This document shows, piece by piece, positions 512-58,604 of a stretch of 64,000 nucleotides of DNA. The position numbers and the translations under genes are program-made. The stretch comes from Atopobacter sp. AH10 (lineage in GTDB: Bacteria; Bacillota; Bacilli; Lactobacillales; Aerococcaceae), in assembly GCF_003664595.1 (NCBI RefSeq), contig NZ_QXPZ01000018.1, positions 1 through 64,000 on the forward strand, written 5' to 3'. Position 1 is the first letter of the stretch; every line of letters starts with the position of its first letter. The notes beneath the pieces were generated by a model. The model did not search any database. It was not told the origin of the DNA and saw only the letters and a list, made by a program, of their open reading frames with translations.

Positions 512-2812
512 CTATTTAGCCTTTTCTGCTAAAGTGTTGTAGTCTGGCAAGCCCTTCTTCTTGGCTTTAGCTTTTGCTTCCTTAATGGTAGATTCCAATT
601 CAGGAGCATCAGTTTTATAAAGACCATAAGTCGTCTTGTTCCCATGTTGAGAAAGGACGGAGCGGTAGTTCTTGCCAAGTGCCTTGATTTGTTTGTCGAG
701 GCGACTGAGGTTATCTGAATAATTTAATGTGGTTTGATCGATTGCTTTGAAGCCTTCTGGTTGATAGAAGCGTAGCAAGTCGTTGGACAAAATTTCTGAA
801 GAGAAGTCTAGAGGTTTTTGAGCTTCCTCTACTTTAGCTGTAATAGCTGCTTTTTCTTCTTCTGTTAAACGATCTGTTAGCTCTTCACCAGTCTTAGTAT
901 CGTAAATCTTGCTTTCAATCACAGTATATTTTGGAGTGACTAAAGTACCATTACGGAAGATGACTTCATTTGGATGATCTTTTGCTAAGAGGTCATGACC
1001 AAACATAGCATATTGATCAGTCTTGATACCTAATAGGTGGAGTAAGGTTGGCAACATATCGATTTGACCACCGAATGTGCTTTGGATACCAGCTTTAATA
1101 CCCTTCTTGGAAATGCCAGGGATGTAGAACAAAGCAGGGATACGTTGAATTTGTGCGTTGTTAAAATCTCCCCAATTTTCAGCATCAGCATTAGGCAAAG
1201 CAGTTGCTAAAGCTTTGTTACGTGAATTAGAAATACCATAGTGATCCCCGTAGAAAACAAATACGGTGTTTTCTAATAAACCAGCTTTCTTCATGTAGTC
1301 GAAGAATTCTTTCAAAGCTTGGTCTGCATAGTGAGCTGTATTGAAGTAACCGTTAACCGTTTCATCTTTAGTATGCATCTTAGGGAAAGAGGCATTCTTT
1401 TCTTCATAAGGGAATGGGAAGTGGTTACTTACGGTAATCATCTTGGAGTAGAATGGTTGAGGTAATTGTTCTAAGTAAGGAATTGAATCACGGAAGAACA
1501 ACTTGTCTTTCAAGCCATATTCCAAGGAGTTTTCTTTGTTAAGAGCATAGTATTGGGAGTCGAAGAAATAATCAACGCCCCATTTCTTGTAGCTGTCATT
1601 TCTGTTCCAGAAGGAGCCTACGTTACCGTGGAAGACAGCAGAAGTATAGTTTCCGTTGTTGCGTAAAATATTTGGCGCAGCTTGGAAGGTATTATCTGAA
1701 CCGAATTGGCTAACGGCAGAACCTTGGCTTAAACCGAAGATAGAGTTTTCCAGCATTAATTCAGCATCAGAAGATTTACCTTGACCAACTTGGTGGAAAA
1801 CGTTGGAGAAAGAGAAGCAATCATTACTGTGATAGAGACTATTTAAGAATGGTGTCGCTTCAACTTCTTTACCATTTTCGTCTTTAGCCTTGTAGTCGAT
1901 CAGGAATTGTTGGATACTTTCCAGGTGAAGGACGACAACGTTACGACCTTTAGCGATCCCGAATGTTTCTGGATTTGGTTGAACTTGGTGCTTTTTGATG
2001 TAATCCATGATAGGTTCCATTTCGGATTCATCAGCTTCAGCACGGACTTTGTTGGCGTGGACGGCTTTTGCAACATCCCAACCAGAGAAGAAGTCCAAAC
2101 CAAGGTATTTGACTAAGTAGTTACGGTCGAAAGTTCTTAACAAGAGTTGTGGACGGGAAATTTCTGCTAATTGCAAATTCAAACCGAAAATCACAACCGC
2201 TAGAGCAGCTAAGGATAGACCATAGCGTTTGTTAAAGCGGTGAGATTGTTCCCGACCAAGGAATTTTTTCTTAGCGGCCCAGACAATTAATGGAAGGTCG
2301 ATCCAGTAAATGAAATCGTACCATTTCATTAATGCTCCTAAAGATCCTGTCATACCAGTCATCTTAAAGCTTTGGGAGCTGAATAAGGACTTGGCAGTTA
2401 GGAAATCACTGAATTCCCGATAGAATAGGATATTACCATAGAGAATAAGCGTTTGGAGAACAACTAATAATAGTAGTACTCGACGACTGTGCTTTTCTTT
2501 AGAAACAAGTAGGGACAAAGAGTAAAAGAATAAGCCAAAAGCGATAGGGTTTAACCAAAGAATAATATGTTGGAAGACCCCTTGAACACCAAGTGAAAAA
2601 TCCACATAATAAGCTATAAGGGTCTTTAACCAAAGAAATGCTGTTGCAAATAAGATTAATTTGACCCGAGGATGCTTGGCGTTTTGTCTAATTTCATTTA
2701 CCCCACGCATGAGCAAGCGTCGGATTGAGAAGTTCTTGAAAGAAATTCTCTTCATTTTATAATCATCTACCTTTTTATGATATCGTTTTTTTGTTACTTT
2801 AAACCAATGCAT
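512..2812 (-). CDS. ltaS: LtaS-type lipoteichoic acid synthase (sulfatase-fold membrane enzyme)
   Basis: The protein is membrane-bound with about five N-terminal hydrophobic helices (to about residue 225) and an extracellular sulfatase-fold domain. The family transfers glycerol phosphate from phosphatidylglycerol onto the growing lipoteichoic acid chain at the outer membrane face. Metal-site motifs are visible: LHLESIQQF, the nucleophile region GQGKSSDAE, and VFYGDHYG. The nucleophile position, usually Thr (GKTSD), is Ser here. I chose the ATG at 2812 because AAGAGG sits 10 bases upstream; a GTG start at 2848 would add 12 residues but has no clear binding site. The 766-residue length is somewhat above the usual 620-720. 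It could be a paralogue rather than the main synthase. Confidence 0.85.
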   Translation of the reverse strand: MHWFKVTKKRYHKKVDDYKMKRISFKNFSIRRLLMRGVNEIRQNAKHPRVKLILFATAFLWLKTLIAYYVDFSLGVQGVFQHIILWLNPIAFGLFFYSLSLLVSKEKHSRRVLLLLVVLQTLILYGNILFYREFSDFLTAKSLFSSQSFKMTGMTGSLGALMKWYDFIYWIDLPLIVWAAKKKFLGREQSHRFNKRYGLSLAALAVVIFGLNLQLAEISRPQLLLRTFDRNYLVKYLGLDFFSGWDVAKAVHANKVRAEADESEMEPIMDYIKKHQVQPNPETFGIAKGRNVVVLHLESIQQFLIDYKAKDENGKEVEATPFLNSLYHSNDCFSFSNVFHQVGQGKSSDAELMLENSIFGLSQGSAVSQFGSDNTFQAAPNILRNNGNYTSAVFHGNVGSFWNRNDSYKKWGVDYFFDSQYYALNKENSLEYGLKDKLFFRDSIPYLEQLPQPFYSKMITVSNHFPFPYEEKNASFPKMHTKDETVNGYFNTAHYADQALKEFFDYMKKAGLLENTVFVFYGDHYGISNSRNKALATALPNADAENWGDFNNAQIQRIPALFYIPGISKKGIKAGIQSTFGGQIDMLPTLLHLLGIKTDQYAMFGHDLLAKDHPNEVIFRNGTLVTPKYTVIESKIYDTKTGEELTDRLTEEEKAAITAKVEEAQKPLDFSSEILSNDLLRFYQPEGFKAIDQTTLNYSDNLSRLDKQIKALGKNYRSVLSQHGNKTTYGLYKTDAPELESTIKEAKAKAKKKGLPDYNTLAEKAK

Positions 2813-2993: not shown

Positions 2994-4154
2994 GTGCGGC
3001 ATATCAAGCTAAATCAGCCTTATCCAAATTTAGAAAGGCCCTTGCTGAAGAGGGAGCAAATCGCTGAAAAGGATAGTAGCGATTCTGGAGAATTAGTGCT
3101 TCTTCAAACGGCTCAAGGGCAAGACATTGGAGTGGCTTTAATGGGAGCAGAGCAAAAGAGTGTGGCTTGTTTGATTAGTGATAGAAGTGATGTAACAGCC
3201 GATCAGTGGCTTACACAATCTGTCAAAAAAGCCATAGAGAAAAGGAAAACTTATTTTTCTGATCAGGAGACGACAGCTTTTCGTTTAGTAAACGCTGAAG
3301 GAGATAGACTGCCTGGCCTTACTATTGATTGGTATGAAGGTTATTTAGTCGTGAATATTTATACTAAAAGTATGCAGCTATACTTAGACAAGATCATGGA
3401 ATTGATGAAAGATTTCTTGCCTGTCAAGGGGGCTGTCCTGAAACGGCGCTACCATTCTATTAATGAGGCTGATTCAAAGTGGATTATGGGAGAAGTTGCT
3501 CCTGAGCCATTAGTCGTTAAAGAAAATGGATTGAATTATGCTTGCTATTTAAATGAAGGCTGGATGACTGGGATCTTCCTCGACCAGCATGAAGTTCGTC
3601 GATATTTATTGGAAACGAGTCGACCTAGTGACCGCCTGTTGAATTTATTTTCTTATACAGGAGCTTTTTCTCTTGGGACGGCTAAAAAAGGTGGACATAC
3701 GACCAGCGTGGATGTGGCCAATCGTTCAAGGAAGTTAACGGAAGAACAGTTCCAGGTCAATGGGATAGATCCTGAAAGTCAATCGATTTATGTGTTCGAT
3801 GCCTTTAAATTCCTTCCATATGCGAAACGGAAAGGTATGTGTTTTGACCGGATTGTCATTGATCCGCCAAGTTTTGCTCGGACGAAAAAGAGGGTGTTCA
3901 GAATAACAAAAGATTACCCAGAGTTGATAGAAGAGAGCCTTTTAGTTTTGAATAAAGGAGGGGAATTAATCCTATCCACCAATGCGGCAAATTGGACAGC
4001 TAAGGCCTACGATCAAATGATTGCGGATAGCATGAAAAAAGCTGGGAGAAAGTATAGCTACCTCAAATCGTTTGGCCTACCCAATGACTTTCCTACGCCT
4101 AAGCAGTCTTTGCTGAGCCACTATTTGAAGGTTCGTGTGCTCAAAGTCGATTAA
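2994..4154 (+). CDS. RlmI-family class I SAM-dependent rRNA (cytosine-C5) methyltransferase
   Basis: The 386-residue protein has the RlmI/RlmK layout: a PUA-like N-terminal part (about 1-70), a linker domain containing DWYEGYLVVNIY, and a Rossmann methylase with FSYTGAFSLG (SAM loop), VDVANRS and the catalytic-loop motif IDPPSFARTKK. The family methylates cytosine in 23S rRNA. Start is GTG at 2994 behind GAGAGGGG. It is divergent from the LtaS-type gene and stands alone. RlmI orthology is likely, but the target base cannot be read from sequence. Confidence 0.8.
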   Translation: MRHIKLNQPYPNLERPLLKREQIAEKDSSDSGELVLLQTAQGQDIGVALMGAEQKSVACLISDRSDVTADQWLTQSVKKAIEKRKTYFSDQETTAFRLVNAEGDRLPGLTIDWYEGYLVVNIYTKSMQLYLDKIMELMKDFLPVKGAVLKRRYHSINEADSKWIMGEVAPEPLVVKENGLNYACYLNEGWMTGIFLDQHEVRRYLLETSRPSDRLLNLFSYTGAFSLGTAKKGGHTTSVDVANRSRKLTEEQFQVNGIDPESQSIYVFDAFKFLPYAKRKGMCFDRIVIDPPSFARTKKRVFRITKDYPELIEESLLVLNKGGELILSTNAANWTAKAYDQMIADSMKKAGRKYSYLKSFGLPNDFPTPKQSLLSHYLKVRVLKVD

Positions 4155-46708: not shown

Positions 46709-46740
46709 TGAACAGATATAACTTGATAAATCTCTGATAG

Positions 46741-46773
46741 TACGGGAATATACACATACCAAAACTAAAGGAG
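46741..46773 (+). repeat. Leader repeat, copy 1
   Basis: TACGGGAATATACACATACC and the following AAAACTAAAGGAG lie directly before the gene at 46783. The same 20 bases recur at 47882. Confidence 0.85.
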
Positions 46774-46782
46774 GAAAAACAA

Positions 46783-47816: not shown

Positions 47817-47881
47817 AACTACTATTATTATGAAAATAAAGCACATATTTCTTTAAAAACGACTTGCTATATCCTTCAAAT

Positions 47882-47914
47882 TACGGGAATATACACATAC
47901 CAAAAACAAAGGAG
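47882..47914 (+). repeat. Leader repeat, copy 2
   Basis: TACGGGAATATACACATACC followed by AAAAACAAAGGAG, matching the copy at 46741 in 20 consecutive bases and nearly all of the next 13. It stands directly before the gene at 47923. Confidence 0.85.
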
Positions 47915-47922
47915 AAACGAAC

Positions 47923-48490: not shown

Positions 48491-48514
48491 GCAGCCAAAG
48501 GGCTGTATTTTTTT
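48491..48514 (+). terminator. Intrinsic terminator before the large terminase
   Basis: CAGCC/GGCTG around AAAG is followed by T and seven more T after one A. Another perfect palindrome, CAGAGCC-TA-GGCTCTG (48463-48478), lies just upstream. Confidence 0.65.
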
Positions 48515-48516
48515 AT

Positions 48517-48593
48517 GACCTAACAGAAATCTTTAATTTCGTAGTAGGTCAGATATCGCATTGTTTCAAATCTGTGATTTGTCAAAATGCGAT
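48517..48593 (+). promoter_or_regulatory. Structured leader of the large terminase gene
   Basis: GACCTA/TAGGTC (48517-48550) encloses an AGAAAT/ATTTC stem. Then ATCGCATT (48555-48562) pairs with AATGCGAT (48586-48593) around AAATC-TGT-GATTT. The loop carries CTGTGATTTG, shared with the two early leaders. It ends 15 bases before AAAGGAGGTGA. Confidence 0.5.
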
Positions 48594-48616
48594 TATAACG
48601 TAAAGGAGGTGATTTG

Positions 48617-50362: not shown

Positions 50363-51682
50363 ATGTTGCGTTATGAGAGAAAGCTAAAAACTAGAAATAT
50401 ATACCTGAATCAATTGATTGCATTTAAAGACAAAGAACCCGTAAAGGTTATAACAGGAATTAGAAGATGTGGAAAATCAAGTTTATTAAAACTAATGCAG
50501 GAACATCTTTTGAATTCCGGAGTTAAACAAGATGAGATTATTGCGATAAATTTTGAATCCCTTGAATTTCAAGAGATGAATTACAAAGAATTATATGACT
50601 ATGTAAAGAAAAAAATTCCAACTACAAAAAGAGCATATTTATTCTTTGATGAACTTCAAAGGATAGAAAGATGGGAAGATGCCATAAACTCATTTCGTGT
50701 TGATTTTGATTGTGATATATATATAACCGGATCTAACTCATACCTATTGTCATCGGAATACTCCACATATTTATCCGGTAGATATGTAGAAATAAAAATG
50801 TATCCATTGTCATTCAAGGAATTTATAGATTTTCATGGATATAAACTAAAGGAATATAAAACACCAATTGGGGAAAAGAAAAAAAGAGCAGTAAATGAGA
50901 ATGATGAAATTGTTGAAATCCGGGATCTATTTGATGCATATATGCGATATGGAGGTATGCCTGGAATAGCTGATGTTGGACTTGAACAAGACAAAGCGAT
51001 GACATTACTCGATGGAGTATATTCAACTGTCGTTGTTAGAGATATCCTTGAACGTGAAAAAAGAAGAGGATTAAGACAAATTACTGATGCAGAATTACTT
51101 AGAAAAATTATATTATTTTTAGCGGATAATATCGGAAATAATACCTCTCTTAATTCGGTAAGCAATACACTTGTATCTGAAAACATGATTCAAAATCGTG
51201 AAAGGCAAGGTAAACCGGCAACGAAAACTATTGCATCATATGTAGGAGCATTGAAAGAATCCTACATGTTTTATGATGTTAAGCGATTTGATATAAAGGG
51301 AAAAGAATATCTAAGAACACTTGGGAAGTATTATATCGTAGATATTGGACTAAGAAATTATTTACTTGGATTTAGAGATAGAGACAGAGGACATGCATTA
51401 GAAAATATAGTTTACTTTGAATTGTTAAGACGTGGGTTTGATGTAGCAATTGGAAAAATTGACAATTTAGAAGTCGATTTTATTGTTACAAATGCAAATG
51501 AAAAAATGTATGTTCAAGTAACAGAAAGCATGAAAAATGAATCTGTAAGAGAAAGAGAATTAAAACCGTTACAAAAAATCCATAATAATTATAAAAAAAT
51601 GGTTATTACTTTAGACAAAGCTATTGATGATGAATATGATGGAATTCAGTCTATTGATATAATTGATTGGTTGTTAAAGTAA
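50363..51682 (+). CDS. AAA_14/DUF4143 ATPase inserted between terminase and portal
   Basis: The 439-residue protein has a P-loop ITGIRRCGKSSLL, Walker B LFFDELQRIERW, sensor ITGSNSYLLSSEYS, a winged helix, and a DUF4143 C-terminus with GHALENIVYFELLRRGFDV and EVDFIVTNANEKMYVQV, resembling a PD-(D/E)XK fold. The family is common, mobile and of unclear role. Its own promoter and terminator, and its place inside a morphogenesis operon, mark it as a moron-type insertion. A role in defence or superinfection immunity is speculative. Confidence 0.85.
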   Translation: MLRYERKLKTRNIYLNQLIAFKDKEPVKVITGIRRCGKSSLLKLMQEHLLNSGVKQDEIIAINFESLEFQEMNYKELYDYVKKKIPTTKRAYLFFDELQRIERWEDAINSFRVDFDCDIYITGSNSYLLSSEYSTYLSGRYVEIKMYPLSFKEFIDFHGYKLKEYKTPIGEKKKRAVNENDEIVEIRDLFDAYMRYGGMPGIADVGLEQDKAMTLLDGVYSTVVVRDILEREKRRGLRQITDAELLRKIILFLADNIGNNTSLNSVSNTLVSENMIQNRERQGKPATKTIASYVGALKESYMFYDVKRFDIKGKEYLRTLGKYYIVDIGLRNYLLGFRDRDRGHALENIVYFELLRRGFDVAIGKIDNLEVDFIVTNANEKMYVQVTESMKNESVRERELKPLQKIHNNYKKMVITLDKAIDDEYDGIQSIDIIDWLLK

Positions 51683-53154: not shown

Positions 53155-53812
53155 TGGAACGATAGCTGAAGAATCGTGGTTTGATGATGATGTGACACCA
53201 CAGCTTTTCAAAGAGGAGTTAAATCAGGGGAATGGAAACATTACCGTTTGGATTAACTCGCCAGGAGGTGACTGTGTGGCAGCAGCTCAAATCTACAATA
53301 TGCTAATTGACTATAAGGGAGATGTCACAGTAAAAGTTGATGGTATCGCAGCAAGTGCAGCATCAGTTATTGCAATGGCAGGGACAAATGTATTAATGAG
53401 TCCAGTATCTATGCTCATGATCCATAATCCTATGACCATAGCGTTTGGAAATAAGGGGGAGATGGAAAAAGCAATTTCAATGCTGGACGAAGTAAAAGAA
53501 TCCATCATCAATGCTTATGAAATTAAGACAGGGTTGTCTAGAACGAAATTGTCACATTTAATGGACTCAGAAACTTGGATGGATGCACATAAAGCTGTGG
53601 AACTTGGATTTGCAGATGATATCTTAAAAAGAAGTGAAACTACAGACATAGAGGTACCACAAGTTTCCATGATGTATTCAAAGGCACAGGTTGTAAATTC
53701 ACTGATGGATAAGATTGCTTCTAAATGCAGGATAGAAAACAAAGAAAGAAATACAGGTATTAAGGCGGACGAATTAATGGACCGTCTTTTTTTAATGAAA
53801 AATTGGAGGTAG
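53072..53812 (+). CDS. ClpP-like prohead protease
   Basis: The 246-residue ClpP-fold serine protease shows VWINSPGGDCVAAAQIYNML, VDGIAASAASVIAMAG with the catalytic Ser, and LMIHNPMTIAFGN with the catalytic His; the Asp lies near LMDSETWMDA. It processes capsid proteins during head maturation in this phage family. ATG 53072 has AAGGAGG upstream. The last residues read FLMKNWR, encoded by DNA that also holds the binding site of the following mini-ORF. Confidence 0.93.
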   Translation: MKKFWKWKNQVMRNQNEEEVTERILFLNGTIAEESWFDDDVTPQLFKEELNQGNGNITVWINSPGGDCVAAAQIYNMLIDYKGDVTVKVDGIAASAASVIAMAGTNVLMSPVSMLMIHNPMTIAFGNKGEMEKAISMLDEVKESIINAYEIKTGLSRTKLSHLMDSETWMDAHKAVELGFADDILKRSETTDIEVPQVSMMYSKAQVVNSLMDKIASKCRIENKERNTGIKADELMDRLFLMKNWR

Positions 53813-53818
53813 AACACT

Positions 53819-53929
53819 ATGTACCCTTCCGATGAAATATCACGAAATCAAAGATTTCTATATTTCTATCGTTGGGCACGAGAACATTTTTCATTGATTA
53901 ATAAAATTAGGAGGAAGAAAAATGAGTAA
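53819..53929 (+). CDS. Mini-ORF on the 70-bp duplication, copy 1 (36 aa)
   Basis: ATG 53819 stands nine bases after GGAGG. The product starts YPSDEISRNQRFLYFYRWAR and ends in a basic tail, stopping inside the start of the capsid gene, whose binding site it contains. It may be a real coupled peptide or a passenger of the duplicated DNA. Confidence 0.4.
   Translation: MYPSDEISRNQRFLYFYRWAREHFSLINKIRRKKNE
53823..53892 (+). repeat. 70-bp direct repeat, copy 1
   Basis: The 70 bases from ACCCTTCCGATGAAATATCA onward are identical to 55415-55484. The unit holds a small inverted repeat GAAATC-AAA-GATTTC (53844-53858). It lies between the protease and capsid genes. Confidence 0.95.
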
Positions 53930-55115
53930 GATTTTAGAAATGATTGAAAAACGTAATAAGGCTTGGGAAGGTGCTAAGGCTTTTCTTGAAAGTAAGAGAG
54001 ATAAAGACGGACTTATTTCTGAAGAAGATGCTTTAAGCTATGATGAAATGGAAAAGAAAGTCCATAACTACAGCTTAGAAATTGAAAGATTGCAGAAGAT
54101 GGAGGAGATGGACAAAGAGCTATCTAAACCTATGTCTGATGCTATCGTAACAAAACCAATGAAAGTGGATGACAATCCGGAGAAAAAGGGAAGAGCATCC
54201 GATGAATACAGAAGGGATATGCTTAAGGCAATCAGAAGTAACTTTAAGCAGATTACAAACCTTTTGCAGGAAGGAGTGGACACTGATGGAGGATATCTTG
54301 TTCCGGAGGAATATGATAAGAGACTGATTGATGTATTAACGGAAAATAACATCATGAGAACTCTTGGAACAAAGATTACCACATCCGGGCTTCATAGAAT
54401 TACGGTGACTGCAACAAAACCTGCAGCACTTTGGGTTGAAGAAGGTGGCAAGATTCCATTTGATGATGCGACATTCGGCCAAATTACCATTGATGCCTTT
54501 AAACTTGCTGTTGGAGTTAAGATTACAAACGAGCTTTTATATGACAGTATGTTCCCGCTTGAAAATTATATTATTGAGCAGTTTGGTAAGGCAATCGGTA
54601 ATGCCGAGGAAGATGCGTTTCTTAATGGAGATGGAAAGAAAAAGCCACTTGGAATTTTCCATAAAGATGGTGGTGCAATTAGTGATGTAACAACAGCAGG
54701 AGCAACTATTTCATCTGACGATATTATCAGTCTCGTGTATGCACTTGGAAGACCATATCGTCAAAAGGCTAAATTCATTATGAATGACCAGACCATTGCC
54801 ATCATTAGAAAACTGAAAGATGGTAACGGAAACTATATGTGGCAGCCTTCCATTAAAGAAGGAGAACCGGATAGACTGCTTGGTTATCCTATTTTCACAT
54901 CAGCGTATGCACCTCTTGTAGAAGCGGGAAAACCTGCCATTGCATTCGGTGATTTTTCTTATTACAACATTGCAGACAGAGGAACAAGGTCTATGCAGGA
55001 ACTTACGGAGCTTTATGCTGAAACGGATACGACAGGCTTTATTGCAAAGGAAAGAGTGGATGGAAAACTGATTCTTCCTGAGGCGGTTCATCTTTTAACT
55101 ATTAAAGCAAAATAA
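53922..55115 (+). CDS. HK97-type major capsid protein
   Basis: The 397-residue precursor has an N-terminal coiled-coil scaffolding (delta) domain to about residue 110, then the HK97 fold with VDTDGGYLVPEEYDKRLIDVLTENNIMRTLGT, AVGVKITNELLYDS, EDAFLNGDGKKKPLGIF and AYAPLVEAGKPAIAFGDFSYYNI. The protease upstream likely removes the delta domain. ATG 53922 follows AGGAGG. It overlaps the mini-ORF stop. Confidence 0.95.
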   Translation: MSKILEMIEKRNKAWEGAKAFLESKRDKDGLISEEDALSYDEMEKKVHNYSLEIERLQKMEEMDKELSKPMSDAIVTKPMKVDDNPEKKGRASDEYRRDMLKAIRSNFKQITNLLQEGVDTDGGYLVPEEYDKRLIDVLTENNIMRTLGTKITTSGLHRITVTATKPAALWVEEGGKIPFDDATFGQITIDAFKLAVGVKITNELLYDSMFPLENYIIEQFGKAIGNAEEDAFLNGDGKKKPLGIFHKDGGAISDVTTAGATISSDDIISLVYALGRPYRQKAKFIMNDQTIAIIRKLKDGNGNYMWQPSIKEGEPDRLLGYPIFTSAYAPLVEAGKPAIAFGDFSYYNIADRGTRSMQELTELYAETDTTGFIAKERVDGKLILPEAVHLLTIKAK

Positions 55116-55132
55116 AGGAGGGGGTGCTAGTT

Positions 55133-55411
55133 ATGGTTGTAAGTCTTGAAGAAATGAAAAATTATCTCAGAGTAGATACCAGTGAAGATGATAATCTGAT
55201 TAGCACCCTCATAAAGTCTTCCGAGAAGATGTGCCTTGCTATTGCAAGAAAAGATGAAGAAGAAATCATTGGTGAAAATTTTGAAGAATATAAGGTGGCA
55301 GTGCTATATGCTGTCGCCTATCTTTATGAGCATAGGGAAGAAGCTGACCATCATGAACTAACGATCACCCTTAGGTCAATGTTATTTGGAGTAAGAAAGG
55401 CGGGATTTTAA
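55133..55411 (+). CDS. Head-tail connector (HK97 gp6-like)
   Basis: The 92-residue protein has SLEEMKNYLRVDTSEDDNLISTLIKSSEKMCLAIARK and AVAYLYEHREEADHHELTITLRSMLFGVRKAGF, the gp6/YqbG-type connector pattern. It forms a ring below the portal. ATG 55133 is eight bases after AAAGGAGGGGG; the upstream GTG at 55124 is too close. Confidence 0.9.
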   Translation: MVVSLEEMKNYLRVDTSEDDNLISTLIKSSEKMCLAIARKDEEEIIGENFEEYKVAVLYAVAYLYEHREEADHHELTITLRSMLFGVRKAGF

Positions 55412-55494
55412 TGCACCCTTCCGATGAAATATCACGAAATCAAAGATTTCTATATTTCTATCGTTGGGCACGAGAACATTTTTCTTGTTATTGA
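55411..55494 (+). CDS. Mini-ORF on the 70-bp duplication, copy 2 (27 aa)
   Basis: ATG 55411 overlaps the connector stop (TAATG). The first residues HPSDEISRNQRFLYFYRWAR repeat copy 1 apart from the second residue. In another frame the same DNA is open from 55424 into the head-closure gene and could extend it. Confidence 0.35.
   Translation: MHPSDEISRNQRFLYFYRWAREHFSCY
55415..55484 (+). repeat. 70-bp direct repeat, copy 2
   Basis: Identical to 53823-53892 over all 70 bases. It lies between the connector and the head-closure gene, again just before the next gene's ribosome binding site. Confidence 0.95.
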
Positions 55495-55510
55495 AAATGG
55501 AGGTAGAAAA

Positions 55511-55843
55511 ATGAAGATATCACTCTTAAGTGAACGCATCGAACTTCAAAAAAGTATGGTCGAGGTAGATGAGATAGGAAACCACAAAAATGTATGGAGT
55601 AAATTTTACTCTTGCTATGCAACTATCAGCAGTGAAAGTCCAAAGGAAGAAACAAGTAGTGGTGCTATATGGGATGAAAGCAAGATTGACTTTACCATTC
55701 GCTATAGTAAGGAAGTATCGGTCTTATCTTCTGTTGGATATAGAGTTATTTTTCATAATGATATTTATGAAATTGAGGGCATAGACCATATGAATTACAA
55801 GAAGAAAAGTGTGAAACTGCACTGCAGGAGAGTGGAAAGATGA
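55511..55843 (+). CDS. Head closure / head-tail adaptor protein
   Basis: The 110-residue protein starts KISLLSERIELQKSMVEVDEIGNHKNVWSKFYSCYATIS and ends in IDFTIRYSKEVSVLSSVGYRVIFHNDIYEIEGIDHMNYKKKSVKLHCRRVE, typical of the phage head-tail joining family (SPP1 gp16-like). ATG 55511 has GGAGG upstream. It overlaps the next start. Confidence 0.9.
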   Translation: MKISLLSERIELQKSMVEVDEIGNHKNVWSKFYSCYATISSESPKEETSSGAIWDESKIDFTIRYSKEVSVLSSVGYRVIFHNDIYEIEGIDHMNYKKKSVKLHCRRVER

Positions 55844-57688: not shown

Positions 57689-57739
57689 TTGACAAGTTTA
57701 CTTGGCTATAATATAATAATTTTGACAATAAAACTTGGC
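57689..57739 (+). promoter_or_regulatory. Strong promoter with operator-like palindrome and direct repeats
   Basis: TTGACA (57689-57694), 17 bases, TATAAT (57712-57717) form a consensus promoter. The palindrome CAAGT-TT-ACTTG (57693-57704) lies within it. TTGACAAGTTTACTTGGC is echoed as TTGACAATAAAACTTGGC at 57722-57739. Autoregulation by the XRE protein is inferred. Confidence 0.75.
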
Positions 57740-57752
57740 AGGAGGCTACGGA

Positions 57753-58082
57753 ATGAATAAAGAAGAAATATTATCTAGAAGTCGAAACGAATTAAAAAAT
57801 GCTGACTTGGTCGAAATGCAAACTAACTATCAAGCTGGTAATATAGCTGGAAGAGTTGGAGCGACAATATGTGTTCTGCTCTCTGTTATTGCGAGAATAT
57901 TTACAGATGAATATATAGTAAGCCCTTGGATTATTTATTTTTCGATTCTTGGGACAAATTGGTTAGTTAGATTCATAAAATTAAAAAGGAAAACTGATTT
58001 GCTTGTAAGTTTACTATTTATAGCTTTAGCGTTTATATTATTCATTGTTCAAGTTAAGCAATTAATGGGTGCAAGTGTATGA
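57753..58082 (+). CDS. DUF6442-like small membrane protein (109 aa)
   Basis: The product begins NKEEILSRSRNELKNADLVE and has three or four membrane helices (about 35-50, 60-75, 88-105). The start and topology resemble DUF6442 proteins that usually precede a small XRE regulator, as here. ATG 57753 follows AGGAGG. It heads an independently promoted cassette in the tail operon. Function unknown. Confidence 0.75.
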   Translation: MNKEEILSRSRNELKNADLVEMQTNYQAGNIAGRVGATICVLLSVIARIFTDEYIVSPWIIYFSILGTNWLVRFIKLKRKTDLLVSLLFIALAFILFIVQVKQLMGASV

Positions 58083-58285
58083 ATGAAGAATTAATATTAA
58101 AGAATAATTTAAAAGAAGTACGCTCGGAAGCAAAATTATCCCAAGCAAAATTGGCGGAAATGGTAGGTGTATCAAGGAATACAATTAGCTCAATTGAGAC
58201 GGGGCAATTTAATCCAACTGCTAAATTGGCCTTAATTTTATGTATTGCTTTGGATAAAAAATTTGAAGATTTATTTTATTTTTAG
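58079..58285 (+). CDS. XRE-family HTH regulator (68 aa)
   Basis: The protein is a single Cro/C1 HTH: NLKEVRSEAKLSQAKLAEMVGVSRNTISSIETGQFNPTAKLALILCIALDKKFEDLF. It matches the short YozG-like regulators found with small membrane proteins. Its ATG overlaps the previous stop by four bases. It probably represses its own promoter at 57689. Confidence 0.9.
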   Translation: MNEELILKNNLKEVRSEAKLSQAKLAEMVGVSRNTISSIETGQFNPTAKLALILCIALDKKFEDLFYF

Positions 58286-58298
58286 GAGGAATGCAAGC

Positions 58299-58604
58299 AT
58301 GAAAGATATCAGTTTACTATTGATCGGATTATTAATATCAATTTTAGGAATCGTGAATATTACAGGAAATATCAGTACAATCCATTCATATAATCGCAGA
58401 AAAGTCAAGGAAGAGGATGTACCTAAATATGGAAGGATTGTTGGAATTGGAACTCTGATAATCGGCTTATCTTTAATTATAGGATTTATATTACCATTAC
58501 TGCATATTAATATTCCGTTAGAATATGTTATAGCTCCTATGGGTGGAGTCGGAATACTTTTAATATTATATGGTCAATTTAAATATAATAAAGGTATTTT
58601 CTAG
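58299..58604 (+). CDS. Small two- or three-helix membrane protein (101 aa)
   Basis: The protein has a first helix LLLIGLLISILGIVNITG, a short basic linker with SYNRRKVKEEDVPKYGRIVG, and two further helices. I do not recognise the family. ATG 58299 follows AGGAGG. It completes the DUF6442-XRE cassette and ends before a terminator. Confidence 0.7.
   Translation: MKDISLLLIGLLISILGIVNITGNISTIHSYNRRKVKEEDVPKYGRIVGIGTLIIGLSLIIGFILPLLHINIPLEYVIAPMGGVGILLILYGQFKYNKGIF

Follow-up and report, generated by a model that had tools for sequence, protein, structure and literature searches.

Why should two structural genes of a single phage head cluster each be preceded by almost exactly the same sequence? 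In the window, by which we mean the whole 64,000-nucleotide stretch analysed here, positions 53819–53892 and 55411–55484 match at 73 of 74 bases, the sole difference being T/C at the fourth base. The initial annotation had reported a 70-bp identity, and 53823–53892 is indeed exactly identical to 55415–55484, with the match extending to 74 bases. It had also correctly placed the copies in front of structural genes, which encode the major capsid protein (PF05065) and a head completion protein (PF05521), and each copy does open with an ATG, that of a mini-ORF reading YPSDEISRNQ or HPSDEISRNQ. A genome-wide search located these two copies only in the 2.2-Mb genome; the same two are carried by IMGVR_UViG_2832883297, a record that may be the same isolate as the window. 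The first position (capsid) is occupied alone in Parvimonas parva (L094; L numbers denote the loci compared), and the second (head-closure) is occupied alone in Streptococcus phage Javan191 (L004), L007, L008 and L010. Because each position is filled independently in other phages, an assembly error is excluded. The best explanation is that the 74-bp repeat is the conserved body of a folded, apparently non-coding insertion element of ~100 bp, hereafter E1. The gene content of the window is ordinary; this small insertion element is what is unusual about it.

Alignment with empty sites in relatives defines both copies as inserts (slashes mark insertion points). Copy 1 (53821–53923, plus strand) is a 103-bp insert in the start codon of the major capsid gene, bounded as CACTAT/GTACCC...GAAAAAT/GAGTAAG, with ends that are ambiguous by 1–3 bases owing to the flanking ATG. 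This clpP–mcp junction (site 1) is filled in the window and L094, where the window reads ..AACACTATG-TACCC....AGGAGGAAGAAAAATGAGT.., and is empty in L004, L006–L010 and L014, the empty form being ..GGAGGTAGAACACTATGAGT.. or similar upstream of the capsid gene. Copy 2 (55413–55512, plus strand) is a 100-bp insert in the head-closure start codon, bounded as TTTTAAT/GCACCC...GAAAAAT/GAAGATATC. Here, at the connector–head-closure junction (site 2), L006, L009 and L014 are empty (..TTTTAATGAAG..), and the filled form has 100 additional bases ending in GGAGGTAGAAAAATG; it is found in the window, L004, L007, L008 and L010, and as a shortened, degenerate copy in L149. In the relatives with clean empty sites at these two positions the capsid protein is 92–99% identical.

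Searching phage genomes for the repeat, as the initial annotation had proposed, placed the unit at five junctions in all, with one copy per carrier phage and two only in the phage of the window; the carriers are related tailed phages of Peptoniphilaceae-type hosts, Eubacterium and Streptococcus. The three further junctions, detected by pattern scans, are gp10-like–next gene (site 3, filled in L087, L089 and L090), portal–clpP (filled in L092, a Lagierella MAG) and terS–metK (site 5, filled in L095, L096 and L098). At site 3 the empty form AAATTACAAGATGGATAGG compares with the filled form AAATTACAAGATG-CACCC...GAAAAATGGATAGG, which sets the exact insertion point at AAATTACAAGATG/GATAGG among relatives whose gp10-like protein is 95–98% identical. 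Site 5 is empty in L166 (GGAGGTAATTGTATTG/TTTGAAAAAG) and filled in L167, with the insert lying between TTG and TTT and ending in ATG; a second pair contrasts L176 (empty, AATAAATTTG/TTTG) with L177 (filled). Sites 1, 2, 3 and 5 thus display the general hallmark of a mobile element, namely filled and exactly empty sites in close relatives. Given five different junctions and such empty sites, the active small mobile unit that the initial annotation had offered as one possibility is the best reading, and E1 is probably a small, non-autonomous, structured mobile element of an HK97-type siphophage lineage that spares its target gene.

How the target gene is spared can be read from the insertion points. 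E1 lies in the sense orientation at all five junctions, and at four of them the insertion falls exactly inside the start codon (NT/G), following a T and usually as AT/G. At these start-codon junctions the element ends in a Shine-Dalgarno sequence and an ATG. Since the native start of metK is TTG and the insert there ends in ATG, the right-end ATG is E1's own. In the window, the original ribosome binding site of the capsid gene (GGAGG) and its start codon (53805–53821, plus strand) now lie upstream of the insert, and the gene itself (53922–55115, plus strand; PF05065, E=1.3e-76) starts at the ATG that ends copy 1; the head-closure gene (55511–55843, plus strand; PF05521) has GGAGG at 55499. The start-codon precision is not absolute, as seen in L149 and in L092, where the insert is placed ~7 bases past the ATG (ATGAAAAAT/AAAATATTTTGG, compared with L150).

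Folding predicts two hairpins in each copy. Hairpin 1 (53824–53876 in copy 1 and 55416–55468 in copy 2, both plus strand) is made up in copy 1 of CCC, CGAT(bulged T)GAAATAT and GAAATC-AAA-GATTTC; the GAAATC/GATTTC stem of the initial annotation is therefore present, but as the tip of a longer hairpin rather than the whole of it. Among 12 distinct copies the consensus runs CCC, CGAT, GAAAYA, loop, GAAATC-AAA-GATTTC, TRTTTC, unpaired T, ATCG, GGG, with standard pairs in 97.1% of cells versus 35–55% for slid partners and with the bulged T at column 49 invariant (12/12). Compensatory changes accompany the pairing: column 20/44 is C-G in seven copies, U-A in three and G-C in two, and both sides of column 22/42 change as well. 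None of 500 shuffles attained the covariation score of the copies, although kinship among them weakens this test. In hairpin 2 (53885–53924 in copy 1 and 55477–55513 in copy 2, both plus strand), CATTTTTC, just past the linker, pairs with the insert's final GAAAAATG, within which the start codon is located in copy 1, and the loop bears the Shine-Dalgarno sequence (AGGAGG at 53909–53914 in copy 1, GGAGG at 55499–55503 in copy 2). Both arms of this hairpin are replaced in L092 (AGTATTTATT/AATAAATACT) and are still complementary (p=0.0006 versus shuffled left arms), and the metK copies have a stem shortened by one base on each side; the individual stem-2 matches of the other copies are weak when taken alone (p 0.002–0.2). 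A comparison with Rfam 15 returned no meaningful match for E1. Taken together, and at the level of sequence, the alignments and folds establish precise, sense and sporadic insertion at several start codons by an element with a conserved fold; they likewise establish that E1 supplies a ribosome binding site and ATG, which leaves the coding sequence of the target gene complete.

E1 could alternatively be a start-associated regulatory RNA (a translational operator, attenuator or coupling device) gained at chosen genes by recombination; its hairpin, the 3′ stem of which includes the start codon, would then tune translation of the gene that follows. Its invariable sense orientation and position at translation starts, the compensatory changes that preserve the fold and the inclusion of the start codon in hairpin 2 are all consistent with such a role, for which the Start-Associated Sequences (SAS/ESAS) of Cluster K mycobacteriophages provide a real precedent (PMC3203893). 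However, occupancy is sporadic, with most close relatives lacking E1 at each gene, the genes concerned (capsid, metK, clpP) are unrelated, and loop sequences, spacing and the fate of the mini-ORF vary among copies; moreover, SAS/ESAS stay with the same gene families and E1 does not. We therefore consider regulation unlikely to account for E1, and because most relatives lack the element at each site, the conserved regulatory unit entertained in the initial annotation is unlikely too. Separately, the motif AAATCNNNGATTT occurs at three sites versus 0.34 expected; since two of the three are the E1 copies themselves, it is kept only as a weak lead to a putative regulator-binding site. A resemblance to integron attC (GTTGGGC beside the stem) was considered and discarded: the motif is not constant among copies (GCTGGGC, GTAGGGC), and the paired box is missing.

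Could the unit instead be coding? Three frames (the forward mini-ORF, the frame at 55424 and a reverse-strand frame) were assessed by codon-position counts and by tblastn or Pfam, and none was supported. The mini-ORF (53819–53929, plus strand; 36 codons and a stop, overlapping the capsid start) would, if translated (MYPSDEISRNQRFLYFYRWAREHF...), be a small gene spreading as a mini-moron and using the host gene's original ribosome binding site. No stop interrupts its frame within the unit at sites 1, 3 and 5 or in most site-2 copies, and the frame often ends overlapping the next start, as that of such a gene might, but the 16 variable columns split 4/8/4 over codon positions 1/2/3, placing most changes at positions 1 and 2 and half of them at position 2. 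It is also interrupted by in-frame stops in L007/L008 and L092, and it has no Pfam match and no homologue besides Javan191. We regard a translated small gene as highly improbable and the mini-ORF as probably a by-product of insertion. The suggested lengthening of the head-closure protein through the frame at 55424 is not supported either: the PF05521 match begins at residue 30, which is the native start at 55511. Only the window, its IMG/VR twin and L007/L008 have this frame fused to the head-closure gene; in L004/L010 it stops and, while open across the unit in all copies, it is without wobble bias. The head-closure start is most likely 55511 rather than 55424. As for the reverse-strand frame, no copy interrupts it, and wobble positions account for 8 of its 16 variable columns, an excess that is not significant once the number of frames and the paired columns are allowed for. 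Annotators are cautioned against accepting either the mini-ORF or an N-terminally extended head-closure protein as real.

The near-identity of the two window copies, for which the initial annotation had offered a recent duplication as one possibility, has a more composite history, of which duplication is one part. Two bases separate copy 2 from its nearest site-2 relatives (L007/L008), and at both it has the site-1 alleles (those of copy 1 and L094), but its downstream loop is of the site-2 type and resembles site-2 relatives. This combination points to conversion between the copies, which would be the simplest explanation of their likeness, the other candidate being a very recent move. Pairwise identity between sites is about 85–99%, so relocation need not have been recent. 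At site 1 the window and L094 have in common a ~200-bp, 100% identical tract inside flanks that are 80–90% identical, and therefore exchange from phage to phage also occurs. That tract, the mosaicism of the relatives and the copy-to-copy conversion in the window would all suit a recombination linker, in which a short stretch of homology passes from phage to phage by modular exchange, with no transposition involved. Homologous exchange, however, cannot bring the unit to a new junction whose flanks have only ATG or TG in common with it, and at sites 3 and 5 the empty and filled forms differ by exactly the insert, with very similar flanks; we judge this explanation quite improbable.

Read as a mobile element, E1 comprises, in order, a 5′ hairpin bearing the bulged T, a short linker and a 3′ hairpin, the right arm of which forms the element's end. 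We infer that the folded strand, either ssDNA or RNA, may be copied into a new site by an enzyme acting in trans, and that start-codon insertions would survive because E1 rebuilds the translation start. As the start codon lies in the 3′ stem, this stem may be opened in part by ribosomes that initiate at the old start codon and continue across the insert. Y1 transposase genes (PF01797) are absent from the window's own genome and from all E1-bearing phage records and are present only in the Eubacterium host genome of L093, with two genes located elsewhere in that genome; reverse transcriptase is absent from all carrier records searched. Against mobility stand the absence of both enzymes from the carrier phages, a copy number below that of typical MITE or REP families, the divergence between sites and the imperfect start-codon precision described above, and the small number of independent transposition events that five junctions represent; selection alone could also explain the start-codon positions.

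The range of E1 is narrow. It is absent from plasmids in a plasmid search, from all GenBank phages in the collection except Javan191, and from the 397 other genomes of a 398-genome sample of the phylum; 75 other genomes of the family gave weak model hits only, and the three loci inspected looked unrelated. A scan of 85,000 species genomes with the exact core pattern added three further contigs only; in two the match falls in the corresponding head gene cluster, in the third in the portal–clpP region. Literature searches outside subscription journals found no published description of E1.

A weak hit of the E1 model at 48502–48554 of the window led to a second folded family, E2, which consists of GACCTAAC-hairpin-GGTAGGTCAGAT followed by a second hairpin and a ribosome binding site, and for which there was no Rfam match. 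E2 lies before terL in the window (48517–48600, plus strand) and in Javan105/191, before terS in L098, in clpP of L092, L121, L124 and L128, and before the major tail gene in L128 and others (mapped at 814 in L098, 384 in L124, 367 and 3732 in L128 and 1741–1840, minus strand, in L092, and also in L211 and L212). At clpP and the major tail gene E2 is preceded by a partial copy (~12–35 codons) of the gene's 5′ end, the complete gene then following (L128 ~3690–3870; L121/L124/L128 ~260–520; L092 ~1700–1960, minus strand); judged by their sequence, these partial copies are a duplication associated with E2 insertion. In the phylum sample, contig C3 of genome G101 (L213–L222) holds 12 chromosomal E2-like copies, several of them inside TAGGGGC-type repeats, and this genome has three Y1 transposase genes, one of which is ~5 kb from a cluster of E2-like copies. 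For Javan191 and L210, the apical hairpin of E2 matches 20 E1 bases (ACGAAATCAAAGATTTCTGT) exactly in reverse complement, which may point to a relation between the two families. The E2 findings are a lead and stand apart from the conclusion on E1. The hairpin common to both suggests a wider, undescribed group. A bolder proposal, possible but in our estimation unlikely, is that E1 and its sister family E2 form a class of mobile folded elements that target the translation start itself, perhaps by recognising, on ssDNA or mRNA, either an initiation site or a target the size of a start codon, with the replacement ribosome binding site and ATG making insertion into essential, packed operons harmless.

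Other repeats and variable sites lie nearby. A 56-base repeat (46721–46776 and 47862–47917; 82% identical, ..TACGGGAATATACACATACCAAAA..AAAGGAGRAA) directly precedes the starts of two unrelated genes, making it a third start-associated repeat in this prophage; it was not found in the other loci fetched. A small cassette of membrane-protein-like and helix-turn-helix-like ORFs (..GVSRNTISSIETGQFNPTAKLALILCIAL..) is located between tail genes in the window (57735–58604) and upstream of terS in L095 (2299–2838, minus strand). The terL–portal interval, which holds an ATPase-like gene (GIRRCGKSS motif) in the window (50363–51682) and a RelB/DinJ-Doc toxin-antitoxin pair in Javan191 (L004 396–1030), is by this comparison a variable accessory-gene site.

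Because the genes of phage head operons leave so little room between them, most insertions there would be expected to be lethal. An element that enters a start codon and rebuilds the translation signal illustrates how selfish DNA could persist within essential viral operons, and E1, whose sites are filled in some close relatives and empty in others, offers a concrete, testable case.

E1 behaves like a passenger that leaves its target unharmed, and it departs in at least one tested feature from every named class considered. The SAS of Cluster K mycobacteriophages are 13 bp long, occur in 11–19 copies per genome at non-structural genes and are conserved with their genes, and their authors found little support for RNA hairpins (PMC3203893). 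Like E1, SAS and ESAS are short phage repeats that lie in one orientation right before translation starts and are rare elsewhere, the corresponding figures for E1 being start-codon insertion at four of five junctions, all sense; the inverted repeats of some of them are a further likeness. Unlike SAS, which are found in many copies at the same gene families, E1 is ~100 bp, has one or two copies per phage, is sporadic at each gene and sits mostly on structural genes, and it has exact empty sites, covarying stems and its own ATG.

Palindrome-associated elements known as PATEs are reportedly grouped with REP-type, Y1-mobilised elements. REP and REPIN sequences owe their mobility to Y1 (HuH) transposases of the IS200/IS605 type (PMC8266576). 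Like all three, E1 is small and apparently non-coding, forms an imperfect palindrome in which a bulge is conserved, is oriented strand-specifically and lacks a long target duplication; its imperfect hairpin with a conserved unpaired base is as in non-autonomous elements derived from IS200/IS605. It differs in that a tetranucleotide of the GTAG type was not seen where the stem has its foot, copy number is low, no cognate Y1 transposase was found in the carrier phages or the window's genome, and the ends do not have similar hairpins, the 3′ stem CATTTTTC/GAAAAATG being unrelated to hairpin 1 rather than a copy of it. Nor does E1 have the terminal inverted repeats and fixed-length target duplication of MITEs mobilised by DDE transposases: its ends are GYACCC.. 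and ..GAAAAAT, with only T or TG common to the target.

Mycobacteriophage Mobile Elements (MPMEs) measure ~440 bp, code for a protein of 123 residues and carry terminal inverted repeats (PMC4351075). Both they and E1 are very small phage-specific mobile elements that insert between genes, but E1 is ~100 bp, apparently non-coding and without terminal inverted repeats. Finally, translational bypassing inserts are known from phage T4 gene 60 and from Magnusiomyces mitochondria (PMC5009743). Like E1, they bear hairpins, lie between matching codons and leave the gene product unharmed. In E1, however, expression would be restored through a Shine-Dalgarno sequence and a start codon rather than by ribosome skipping, and neither a nascent-peptide signal nor a take-off signal was identified.
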